Source: Desulfovibrio sp. (GTDB taxonomy: Bacteria > Bacillota > Dethiobacteria > DTU022). Taken from it: a stretch of 58,913 nucleotides of DNA. Position 1 is the first letter of the stretch, and every line of letters begins with the position of its first letter. The DNA lies in the NCBI GenBank assembly GCA_020060545.1, contig JAGUZX010000027.1:1-58913 (forward strand), written 5' to 3'. A program made the position numbers and the translations under genes. This document shows, piece after piece, positions 29,575 through 32,818 of the stretch. A model generated the notes under the pieces. That model did not search any database. It was not told where the DNA came from and saw only the letters and a program-made list of their open reading frames with translations.

Positions 29575-29942
29575 TGTCGGCGAAGCGGCGGCGGGTCGGC
29601 TTGGCCGGAGAGAAGGCGGCCCGGGAGTACCTCCAGGGTTGCGGCTTACGCATCGAAGCGGTAAACTACCGCTGCCCCCTGGGTGAAATCGATATCGTGG
29701 CCCGGGGAAAGAAAGCCGTGGTCTTCGTGGAAGTGCGCGCCCGCACCGGCGGCGGTTTCGGGACCCCGGCTGAATCCATTACCGCGCTGAAGCAGAACCG
29801 CCTGAAACGGTTGGCGGAACATTTCATGCGCTGCCGCTATGGACGGGAAGTCCCCTGCCGTTTTGACCTGATCGCGGTGATCATGGATCCGGAAAGCCTG
29901 GCGGTGCGGGATTTGCGCCATTACCGGGGTATCATTGGTTAA
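29574..29942 (+). CDS. yraN: UPF0102 protein YraN
   Basis: A 122-residue YraN-family protein with a restriction-endonuclease-like fold, next to rnhB in many bacteria. Motifs: GEKAAREYLQGCGLRI, CPLGEIDIVARG and VFVEVRARTGGGFG, then FDLIAVI. The active-site-like D and ExR/K positions are kept. A role in DNA processing is suspected for the family but not shown. Confidence 0.92.
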   Translation: MSAKRRRVGLAGEKAAREYLQGCGLRIEAVNYRCPLGEIDIVARGKKAVVFVEVRARTGGGFGTPAESITALKQNRLKRLAEHFMRCRYGREVPCRFDLIAVIMDPESLAVRDLRHYRGIIG

Positions 29943-30049
29943 TTTTTTCCCGCATCCCGTCCATTACCATCCGTCTAAAAAAGTCCAATAATTAAATGAT
30001 GTTAACATAATGTTACGAGTCTTTAACAATTTCACGGGCATACCCCGAA

Positions 30050-30075
30050 AGGGCCTGTTTGTCAGGCTCTTTTTT
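30050..30075 (+). terminator. terminator after yraN
   Basis: AGGGCCTG (30050-30057) pairs with CAGGCTCT (30063-30070, one G-U), followed by six T residues. It overlaps the -35 box of the next promoter. Confidence 0.75.
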
Positions 30076-30087
30076 AATACATATAAT
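30059..30087 (+). promoter_or_regulatory. sigma-A promoter for the riboswitch transcript
   Basis: TTGTCA (30059-30064) and a perfect TATAAT (30082-30087), 17 bp apart. Predicted start near 30094, a few bases before the riboswitch aptamer. Confidence 0.8.
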
Positions 30088-30098
30088 TAAGTTAACAT

Positions 30099-30202
30099 AA
30101 ACGCCGAATCATTTAGTACGGGGGATCCATTTTGGGGGTGAACCGCGCTTTCGCGGAGGGACCACTCCTGTCCCTAACCCGTCAGCTAACCCCGGAGGCG
30201 TA
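30099..30202 (+). promoter_or_regulatory. cyclic-di-AMP riboswitch (ydaO/yuaA type)
   Basis: The leader has the known ydaO-yuaA landmarks in order: ACGCCGAATC, GGGGGATCC, TTTTGGGGGTGAACC, a GCG/CGC hairpin, GGGAC...GTCCC and AACCCGTCAGCTAACC, closed by GGCGT. P1 pairs ACGCC (30101-30105) with GGCGT (30197-30201). The 3' strand of P1 ends only about 5 nt before the AAAGGAGG of the hydrolase gene and no intrinsic terminator follows, so control at translation initiation is plausible. This class turns genes off when c-di-AMP is high and commonly controls cell-wall enzymes and K+ or osmolyte transport. Confidence 0.9.
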
Positions 30203-30220
30203 ACAAAGGAGGTTTACTTA

Positions 30221-31021
30221 TTGTTCAGATCCTTTAAGGCGATCCTGGTCGTATCGGTAATGCTCCTGGTCTTCGGCGCCGGAGCGGCAGAGGCGTCAAT
30301 CCGGCACACCGTGCAGCGGGGCGAAACGCTGTGGCGAATCTCCCAGCACTACGGGACAACACTTGATGCGGTTGCCGCGGCCAACAACCTCTCCAACGTC
30401 AACCTCATTTACCCCGGACAGACCCTGGTGATCCCGGGGAAACACCTGGTCGCCCGCGGTGAAACGCTCTGGTCGATTGCGCAGCGTTACGGCACTACCG
30501 CGGCGGCAATCGCCTCGGCCAGCAGGCTGAGTAACCCGAACCTGATTTACCCGGGGCAGATCTTGACCTTGCCCGGCGGCGTGGATACGGGCTCCGCGCC
30601 ATCGCCGCCTGCGGCGCCCTCGACGCCGCTCCCTTCCCGCGGGGAGACGTCGCTGTCTGCGGCCGACCTGGACTTGTTTGCCCGCCTGGTCCACTCCGAA
30701 GCGGCCGGAGAACCGTATCTGGGGCAGGTGGCGGTGGCGGCTTCGGTCCTGAACCGGGTCAAAGATCCCCGTTACCCCAATACTGTGCGCCAGGTTATCC
30801 TGCAGGTTGTGAACGGCTACTACCAGTATTCACCGGTCCTGGACGGGCGGATTAACCTGCCCGCGAACGAAACAGCCTACCGCGCCGTGCGCGACGCCCT
30901 GAACGGCTCCGACCCCTCCCTGGGCGCGACCGGCTTCTACAATCCCAGTAAAACCACCAATCAGTGGGTGCGCAGCCAGCCTGTGACCACCGTGATCGGC
31001 AACCATGTCTTCTTCCGGTAA
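30221..31021 (+). CDS. LysM-domain cell-wall hydrolase, SleB type
   Basis: A 266-residue secreted hydrolase. TTG 30221 follows AAAGGAGG. A signal peptide (about 1-26: AILVVSVMLLVFGAGAAEA) precedes two LysM repeats (about 28-75 and 78-122: VQRGETLWRISQHYGTTLD, VARGETLWSIAQRYGTTAA), which bind peptidoglycan. A Pro-rich linker leads to a Hydrolase_2/SleB domain (about 150-266) with LVHSEAAGEP (catalytic Glu) and GATGFYNPSK. SleB enzymes are lytic transglycosylases of the spore cortex. With a c-di-AMP riboswitch this one may also act in vegetative wall remodelling. Confidence 0.92.
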   Translation: MFRSFKAILVVSVMLLVFGAGAAEASIRHTVQRGETLWRISQHYGTTLDAVAAANNLSNVNLIYPGQTLVIPGKHLVARGETLWSIAQRYGTTAAAIASASRLSNPNLIYPGQILTLPGGVDTGSAPSPPAAPSTPLPSRGETSLSAADLDLFARLVHSEAAGEPYLGQVAVAASVLNRVKDPRYPNTVRQVILQVVNGYYQYSPVLDGRINLPANETAYRAVRDALNGSDPSLGATGFYNPSKTTNQWVRSQPVTTVIGNHVFFR

Positions 31022-31044
31022 TGGAAACCGGTAAAATGCGGCAG

Positions 31045-31075
31045 GGCCTTCCGTAAAAACGGGAGGCCTTTTTTT
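31045..31075 (+). terminator. rho-independent terminator
   Basis: GGCCTTCCGT (31045-31054) pairs with ACGGGAGGCC (31059-31068) over 10 bp (one G-U), then seven T residues. Confidence 0.9.
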
Positions 31076-31155
31076 ATGATTCTGCGGGAGCGGCGCTTGA
31101 ATTGCTCCGGCAGCCCGATATTTTGACTGACCCGGCGCGGCCAACCCGCTTGTGT

Positions 31156-31183
31156 AACTTTGCCCTGCAGGATGCATATAATA
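31156..31183 (+). promoter_or_regulatory. candidate sigma-K promoter before the CwlJ-like gene
   Basis: AAC (31156-31158), then 16 nt and CATATAATA (31175-31183), fitting the mother-cell sigma-K pattern AC-N16/17-CATAnnnTA. The -10 could also serve sigma-A, but no good sigma-A -35 is present. The leader that follows folds GCCGGG with CCCGGT (about 31200-31236). Confidence 0.5.
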
Positions 31184-31276
31184 TGTAAACACCATATGGC
31201 GCCGGGTATAGATGCGCCGCTACGCACAGCCCGGTGTAACTGAACTTAATTTCGTTAACCGGAAAGGAGCAGCCAG

Positions 31277-31684
31277 ATGAAACGACCCGGACCGGGATCT
31301 GGTAAGAAAAAAACTTTATCGCCGGAGGATCTGGACCTGTTTGCCCGCCTGGTGCATGCCGAGGCGGCGGGTGAGCCGTTCGCGGGGCAGGTGGCGGTAG
31401 CGGCGGTAGTGCTTAACCGGGCCGGCGACCCGCGTTATCCCGATACGGTGCGGGAGGTAATCTTGCAGGTATGGAACGGCTGCCACCAGTTTTCACCTGT
31501 TTCCGACGGCAGGATTAATCTCCCCGCCGGCGAGTCGGCCTTTCGCGCCGTAAAAGCTGCCCTGCACGGCCTCGACCCTTCAAACGGGGCCACCGGTTTT
31601 TACAACCCCGCCGGCACCCGCGACCAGTGGGTGCGCAGCCAGGCGGTTACGGCTAAGATTGGTAACCACATTTTTTTCCGCTAG
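31277..31684 (+). CDS. cell-wall hydrolase, CwlJ-like (no signal peptide)
   Basis: A 135-residue stand-alone Hydrolase_2 domain, closely similar to the catalytic domain of the LysM hydrolase just upstream: EDLDLFARLVHAEAAGEPFA (catalytic Glu), DPRYPDTVREVILQV, GRINLP and GATGFYNPAGTRDQWVRSQ. It has no signal peptide and a basic start (MKRPGPGSGKKK), the layout of CwlJ, a germination hydrolase made in the mother cell and placed in the coat. AAAGGAG precedes ATG 31277. A local duplication of the upstream domain is likely. Sporulation expression is supported by the promoter pattern only. Confidence 0.88.
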   Translation: MKRPGPGSGKKKTLSPEDLDLFARLVHAEAAGEPFAGQVAVAAVVLNRAGDPRYPDTVREVILQVWNGCHQFSPVSDGRINLPAGESAFRAVKAALHGLDPSNGATGFYNPAGTRDQWVRSQAVTAKIGNHIFFR

Positions 31685-31780
31685 CAAATCCGGGCCTCCT
31701 AACTTCCGGGAGACCCTTTCCTTTTGCAGCGCCAACCAAATGTTCTGCCGCCGGATCAGGCATATCCGCGAGCGTGGTTC

Positions 31781-32818
31781 TCATGCATTCCGGATACGCC
31801 ACAGCCGGAATTTGCACTTCCCGCCCCGCCGGCGATAATATTTGTGAAAATATTCCCGGCGCCAGGACAGGGTGTCGGCAATCGTTTTTTCCAGCGGAAG
31901 CGGGGCAAAGCCCAGTTCTAACCGCGCCTTGTCGTTGCTGAAACTGGAATTGTCTACGACGGTCTGCAGCGAATAACGGGTATACTGCGGGATGGTGTTG
32001 GCCAGGCGGTAAAAGTGCTGGGTGAAGCTGGAGAAAAAAAGGGCCAGGTGGAAAGGCACCATTACCAGGGGCGATTTGATCCCGGCGATTTCCTGGGTGA
32101 TCTGGCGCAGTTTTTCCAGGGTGACGCGTTTTCCCGAGAAGATGTAGGCTTCACCGCGGCGCCCTTTTTGCGCCGCCAGGATCATTCCGCGGGCCACGTC
32201 CCGGACATCGACGAAGTCAAAGGCGCCGCTTACCAGGAAATGGAGCTTCCTGGCGGCAAAGGAGCTAATCAGCTGCCCCATTTCCGACCCGCGGTAATCG
32301 TAAGGGCCGATAATACCGGTCGGGTAGACAATGACGGCATCCAGCCCCTGCCCAATCGCTTCCAGGACCGCCAGCGTCCCGGCGGCTTTGGTCCGGTCGT
32401 AAGCCCCGGCGGGATTATCCGGATCCAGCGGGGTCGCTTCGGTGATGGTAACACCGTGGGGCTCCCTCCTGAAAGCGTGGACCGAGCTGGTATGCACCAT
32501 CCGGCGGACATTAGCTTTCAGCGCCGCAGCGGCCGTGTTGCGGGTCCCCTCGACATTAACCCGGTGCATCAGCTCTTCCGCGCCGGGGATGATGGAGATA
32601 ACCCCCGCCAGGTGATAAACAGTCTCCACCCCGGCCATGGCTTTTCCCAGGGCGTCCGGGTCCAAAACGCTTCCCGCCACAAGTTCTACAGCCAGGCCGC
32701 TCAGCGAATCGCAGCACTCACCCGGTAAAACGAGCGCCCGCACCTGCTCCCCCCGGGCCAGCAGTTTCCGCACCAGCACATTGCCGACGTGGCCCGTTGC
32801 GCCGGTAACCAGGTTCAT
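31781..32818 (-). CDS. NAD-dependent epimerase/dehydratase (extended SDR)
   Basis: A 345-residue extended SDR similar to dihydroflavonol-4-reductase-like and hopanoid-associated sugar-epimerase proteins. TGATGHVGNVLVRKLL is the NAD-binding loop, HTSSVHAF holds the catalytic Ser, and YDRTKAAG the Tyr-x-x-x-Lys. Its start follows AAGGAGG and lies 7 bp after the tetR stop, so the two form an operon and the regulator probably controls it. The substrate is unknown. Confidence 0.88.
   Translation of the reverse strand: MNLVTGATGHVGNVLVRKLLARGEQVRALVLPGECCDSLSGLAVELVAGSVLDPDALGKAMAGVETVYHLAGVISIIPGAEELMHRVNVEGTRNTAAAALKANVRRMVHTSSVHAFRREPHGVTITEATPLDPDNPAGAYDRTKAAGTLAVLEAIGQGLDAVIVYPTGIIGPYDYRGSEMGQLISSFAARKLHFLVSGAFDFVDVRDVARGMILAAQKGRRGEAYIFSGKRVTLEKLRQITQEIAGIKSPLVMVPFHLALFFSSFTQHFYRLANTIPQYTRYSLQTVVDNSSFSNDKARLELGFAPLPLEKTIADTLSWRREYFHKYYRRRGGKCKFRLWRIRNA

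Follow-up and report, generated by a model that had tools for sequence, protein, structure and literature searches.

How is an exported cell-wall hydrolase controlled by an RNA leader that resembles a c-di-AMP riboswitch and carries no evident terminator? The question is raised by a locus in a 58,913-nucleotide stretch of Bacillota DNA, hereafter the window, for which the initial annotation had listed the landmarks of a ydaO/yuaA aptamer and proposed a covariance-model search with RF00379. That search (Rfam cmscan) identified an RF00379 c-di-AMP riboswitch at positions 30092–30215 of the forward strand, scoring 87 bits (gathering cut-off 38; E-value 5.9e-19). The match covers the full model (1–134) and includes the Shine-Dalgarno sequence at its 3' end. 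The conserved core (GCCGAAU, GGGGUGAA and CCCGUCAGCUAACC) and the stem P1 are present in the Rfam alignment and in the alignment with relatives, so that the landmarks are confirmed. P1 consists of a 5' strand ACGCC (30101–30105) and a 3' strand GGCGU (30197–30201), as delineated by the Rfam alignment and the fold. The last hairpin of the aptamer, AGGGAC-CACUCCU-GUCCCU (30157–30175), carries in its loop a putative anti-Shine-Dalgarno CUCCU (30165–30169), assigned from the fold and from loop-tail covariation in 142 leaders. This is the sole RF00379 copy in the genome, a draft of 2.5 Mb in 135 contigs. The genome also encodes a CdaA cyclase scoring above the cut-off (271.6 versus 188.8), the gene of which adjoins a YbbR (CdaR-like) gene. 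By these sequence features, the leader is a member of the c-di-AMP riboswitch class and, as such, is expected to bind two c-di-AMP molecules.

The aptamer is preceded by a sigma-70/A-type promoter, TTGTCA-17-TATAAT (30059–30087, forward strand), which fits the consensus at 11 of 12 positions; a near-consensus promoter had been noted here previously. It is the best promoter-like site within 29900–31800, and its TATAAT element is conserved in relatives. Thirteen nucleotides separate the end of TATAAT from the start of P1 at 30101. The −35 element is overlapped by a terminator-like hairpin, GCCTG-TTTGT-CAGGC followed by a T-run (30050–30075, forward strand), which was read from the sequence and is unflagged by the simple terminator scan. 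In relatives (L010–L013, L016, L017, L024 and L026), the hairpin is conserved and again overlaps the −35 element. The hairpin probably insulates the hydrolase leader from the upstream yraN (UPF0102) gene; the terminator of the upstream gene and the promoter of the hydrolase gene use common letters (30050–30087).

A second conserved element lies further upstream. The WalR box has the form TGTWAH-N5-TGTWAH, and the sequence TGTTAA-CATAA-TGTTAC (TGTTAACATAATGTTAC; 30000–30016, forward strand) is its sole match in the window, where 0.05 is expected. This putative box is conserved in most relatives of the family, and orthologues outside the family mostly have no WalR-like box. A walRK-yycHI-like operon is present in the source genome, with a regulator and a kinase that score below the equivalog cut-offs. 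Genome-wide, the pattern is not enriched, with two matches versus six for the reversed-pattern control; WalR control is thus regarded as a lead only.

The gene that follows the aptamer (30221–31021, forward strand) starts with TTG and encodes a protein of 266 residues. Orthologues of 61–74% identity are encoded by a further 11 genomes of the family; in family orthologues, an ATG or GTG start codon is found at the position matching the TTG at 30221. The protein has a signal-like N-terminus, two LysM domains (Pfam, E-value 4e-35) and a Hydrolase_2 domain (PF07486, 106.4 bits versus a gathering cut-off of 27), in agreement with the earlier assignment of a wall hydrolase as the target. An intrinsic terminator with a 12-pair stem and a T-run is found 3' of the gene (31043–31076, forward strand). 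A second Hydrolase_2 gene (31277–31684) encodes 135 residues with neither LysM nor an evident signal peptide. It was considered as a co-regulated partner and rejected, being without an aptamer and placed behind the terminator. Short Hydrolase_2 copies near the first hydrolase gene also occur in three other genomes (G025, G026 and G016). A fourth, divergent Hydrolase_2 gene of the source genome (L230, G000:C42:44276-44566) adjoins an open reading frame resembling a phage-type replication protein, and possibly belongs to a mobile element.

A link to germination, which the initial annotation had suggested, was not borne out. The protein shares its Hydrolase_2 catalytic domain (PF07486) with the SleB/CwlJ-type enzymes, but scores 145.8 bits against the SleB equivalog TIGR02869, for which the cut-off is 236.5, and was therefore discarded as a germination enzyme. 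Its architecture is also unlike that of Bacillus SleB, as LysM domains replace the PG_binding_1 repeats, and a spore location finds no support. A Hydrolase_2 protein encoded on another contig (C37) comes closer to SleB, with 186 bits, and likewise falls short of the cut-off. Two GerA receptors are encoded in the genome, and the source organism is therefore probably a spore former. A vegetative role in wall remodelling is at least as likely for the hydrolase of the window as a role in germination.

The Shine-Dalgarno sequence AAAGGAGG (30205–30212, forward strand) is located eight bases before the TTG start codon. There are 5 nt between the end of P1 at 30201 and the start of AGGAGG at 30207, the short distance that had been pointed out before. 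The pentanucleotide AGGAG (30207–30211) is complementary to CUCCU (30165–30169) in the loop CACUCCU (30163–30169) of the last hairpin. Judged from complementarity and covariation, these two strands are those of the loop-tail pseudoknot in the ydaO fold, and the predicted 3' strand of the pseudoknot consists of the letters of the ribosome-binding site. In the solved ydaO structure, the native fold contains a pseudoknot (PMC5393176). In the crystallised sequence of 4QLM/4QLN, as printed, the corresponding loop contains CUCCUUCG and P1 is followed by CGAAGGAG (PMC5393176); this loop-tail complement matches the arrangement in the window.

The pairing was examined in a set of 142 RF00379 leaders, made up of nearly all those from the order of the window and a sample of the phylum, the phylum loci being taken from among the top scorers. 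In every leader, a score was given to the strongest helix that the loop could form with the 18 nt directly following P1, and loops and tails were permuted among leaders 2000 times. Own loop-tail combinations score 7.40, compared with 6.21 (s.d. 0.09) after permutation (z = 12.8, 0/2000), and the 95 terminator-bearing leaders give z = 11.1. Leaders that have no terminator and a start codon at most 30 nt from P1, hereafter Shine-Dalgarno-type leaders (n = 33, observed distance 13–26 nt), have tails that are kept alike by the Shine-Dalgarno sequence itself. Despite this, the pairing is retained among them (z = 4.9, 0/2000), and in 26 of the 33 the loop-tail helix shares 2 nt or more with the AGGAGG core. 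Since the leader sequences are related, none of these z-scores should be read as a count of independent changes, which they overstate. The register of the pairing shifts between leaders with compensating letters, as in UAUCCC/GGGAUA (L006), CAUUCCUC/GAGGAAUG (L014), UUUCCCU/AGGGAGG (L023) and CUCCUG/CAGGAG (L024).

As a free duplex, the pseudoknot of the window has five pairs and about −8 kcal/mol, whereas the Shine-Dalgarno sequence would pair with the 16S tail, typed as a B. subtilis-like sequence, with about −13 kcal/mol. Repression should therefore depend on the aptamer being folded and occupied by its ligand. In a plain nested fold, part of the Shine-Dalgarno sequence is predicted to lie in a local hairpin that is not obviously conserved. 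The plain folding z-score of the leader is 0.2, which is uninformative because the fold is pseudoknotted. A candidate extension of P1, joining the 5' leader to the spacer after the Shine-Dalgarno sequence (UUAAGUUAA/UUUACUUA), had been spotted by eye in the window; it is not retained in relatives and was abandoned.

Since the pseudoknot strand coincides with the Shine-Dalgarno sequence and the loop covaries with the tail, c-di-AMP most likely blocks translation of the hydrolase by locking the Shine-Dalgarno sequence in the pseudoknot. On the forward strand, the terminator scan gave no terminator-like site from the aptamer up to 31043–31070, past the stop codon of the hydrolase gene; the earlier statement that no separate terminator is seen thus stands. 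A Shine-Dalgarno sequence within the pseudoknot of the aptamer fold, together with no terminator, is what the sequence of a translational OFF riboswitch should present, and such a switch is the reading in which we have good confidence. Of the translational block proposed in the initial annotation, the platform is retained and the route is modified, as the Shine-Dalgarno sequence would be hidden by its inclusion in the pseudoknot and not by the proximity of P1. In this scheme, RNA polymerase would start just before P1. Filling of the aptamer by c-di-AMP would stabilise the fold, including the pseudoknot between the loop CACUCCU and the tail that follows P1. With AGGAG, the core of the Shine-Dalgarno sequence, engaged in that tail, loading of the ribosome would be blocked and the LysM/Hydrolase_2 hydrolase would not be made. 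At low c-di-AMP, the pseudoknot would open or yield to the competing ribosome, allowing synthesis of the hydrolase. The physiological meaning, like the direction of switching, would follow from this scheme: wall cutting would be restrained at high c-di-AMP.

A mainly transcriptional effect is the foremost alternative, albeit an unlikely one. The bound aptamer could promote Rho-dependent or otherwise non-canonical termination, or blocked translation could uncouple the ribosome from the polymerase and end the message early. There is a precedent in the rpfA c-di-AMP riboswitch of Streptomyces coelicolor, for which premature termination was reported (PMC10117811) without a canonical terminator (according to PMC9960051). 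Against it, neither the leader nor the gene of the window contains an intrinsic terminator, start codons found 13–26 nt after P1 leave little room, and reporters of Corynebacterium glutamicum nlpC point to translation (PMC9960051).

It is less probable still that the aptamer is decaying and regulation lost, the pairing of the loop with the Shine-Dalgarno sequence being a leftover, as in sister genera. Two of the 12 full-length hydrolase copies in the family have no Rfam match, and both genomes have kept the cyclase. In G016 (L246), the hydrolase is 74% identical and the promoter and ribosome site of its gene are retained, whereas about 95 bases, and with them the whole aptamer, are absent; the leader reads TATAATGTTTGTTAACATAATGC then GAAGGAGG...TTG. 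As these are draft genomes, an assembly fault is possible in G016. G019 (L255) retains P1 and the CUCCU/AGGAG pairing while its core is mutated, with CCGAUCGUCGAC in place of CCGUCAGCUAAC; the leader gives no RNA family match, even at an E-value of 0.1. This single sequence is either a decayed remnant or a variant with another ligand. These two cases indicate that loss of the aptamer occurs in the family. The aptamer of the window, however, has an intact core and a score of 87 bits, and a scoring aptamer is kept at the same gene in six genera of the family. The sister gene of G016 without the riboswitch offers a natural control leader. The reverse sign, with ligand binding freeing the Shine-Dalgarno sequence and turning the gene on, has nothing specific in its favour beyond the fact that the pairing alone leaves the sign unfixed, and is most improbable given that the Shine-Dalgarno strand is part of the ligand-bound fold (crystal pseudoknot, PMC5393176) and that the literature presents c-di-AMP riboswitches as OFF switches (PMC9960051).

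The genes downstream of the 33 Shine-Dalgarno-type leaders encode mainly wall hydrolases, with Hydrolase_2 (23), NlpC/P60 (3) and DPBB lytic transglycolase (1) proteins, the others being CAP (2), lysine 2,3-aminomutase-type radical SAM (3) and octopine-dehydrogenase-like (1) proteins. The targets of 78 terminator leaders comprise radical SAM/aminomutase and octopine-dehydrogenase-like proteins, amino-acid permeases, OpuAC, TrkH, MpsC and others. Outside the order of the window, wall hydrolases follow 5 of 11 Shine-Dalgarno-type leaders versus none of 74 terminator leaders (Fisher p = 1.4e-5); the targets of the 74 were scanned at E 1e-10, and some of them have no Pfam match. A second set consisted of 13 further genomes, fetched for other reasons, with nearly all their riboswitches examined. 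There, all ten scanned Shine-Dalgarno-type leaders precede wall hydrolases (SLT 3, NlpC/P60 6, M23 1), and one of eight terminator leaders precedes a wall-related protein (G5/3D-domain, Paenibacillus harenae, L290); 6 of the 30 loci, including three of the four from Streptomyces, were left unparsed by the script, and a few starts are doubtful. One genome, that of Alicyclobacillus mengziensis, holds twelve c-di-AMP riboswitches (L280, L288, L294, L297, L301, L303–L308). At least eight of them precede genes for wall hydrolases (SLT, NlpC/P60); in these, 13–24 nt separate P1 from the start codon, and no terminator was detected.

That Shine-Dalgarno-type leaders are mostly on wall hydrolases and terminator-type leaders on osmolyte and K+ genes is a strong lead that falls short of a law. 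It is reasonably probable that the same aptamer has been repeatedly linked to translational control in the case of wall cutting and to transcriptional control in that of osmolyte genes. If the split holds, a simple sequence rule would predict how a c-di-AMP riboswitch acts, and a reversible, translational control of wall cutting would be suggested.

The leader of the window has the aptamer core, P1 and the loop-tail pseudoknot in common with the RF00379 riboswitches of the B. subtilis ydaO/kimA type. It differs from these by having no terminator, by a tail strand that doubles as the Shine-Dalgarno sequence, and by its target, a wall hydrolase instead of a K+ importer. According to a review, ydaO is one of the classes that can mask the ribosome site (PMC10907184). 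Wall hydrolases under c-di-AMP riboswitches are known, chiefly from Actinobacteria (PMC10117811, PMC8079986, PMC9960051), where translational switches of this kind have already been described. In Streptomyces, rpfA and related leaders place a c-di-AMP riboswitch on secreted wall hydrolases, as in the window, and hydrolase leaders of S. coelicolor were suggested to act by blocking the ribosome site (PMC8079986, PMC10117811); the premature termination reported for rpfA (PMC10117811) is unlike the translational route proposed here. There is also a resemblance in platform and target with the nlpC riboswitch of C. glutamicum (RSnlpC), considered most likely translational from reporters, with a proposed CTCC/GGAG pseudoknot (PMC9960051). 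Both have a wall-hydrolase target, no canonical terminator and a CUCC complementary to the GGAG of the ribosome site, but they belong to different phyla and control NlpC/P60 and Hydrolase_2 enzymes, respectively. Translational action has reporter evidence for RSnlpC, whereas it is read from sequence and covariation for the window. Within the literature compared, reporter support for a pseudoknot platform comes from Corynebacterium only, and the window provides a clean example from Bacillota of a c-di-AMP riboswitch that would use its own pseudoknot as expression platform. As far as this literature shows, the novel elements are the covariation evidence from Bacillota that the pseudoknot strand is the Shine-Dalgarno sequence, the split of platforms by target and the natural orthologue without a riboswitch.
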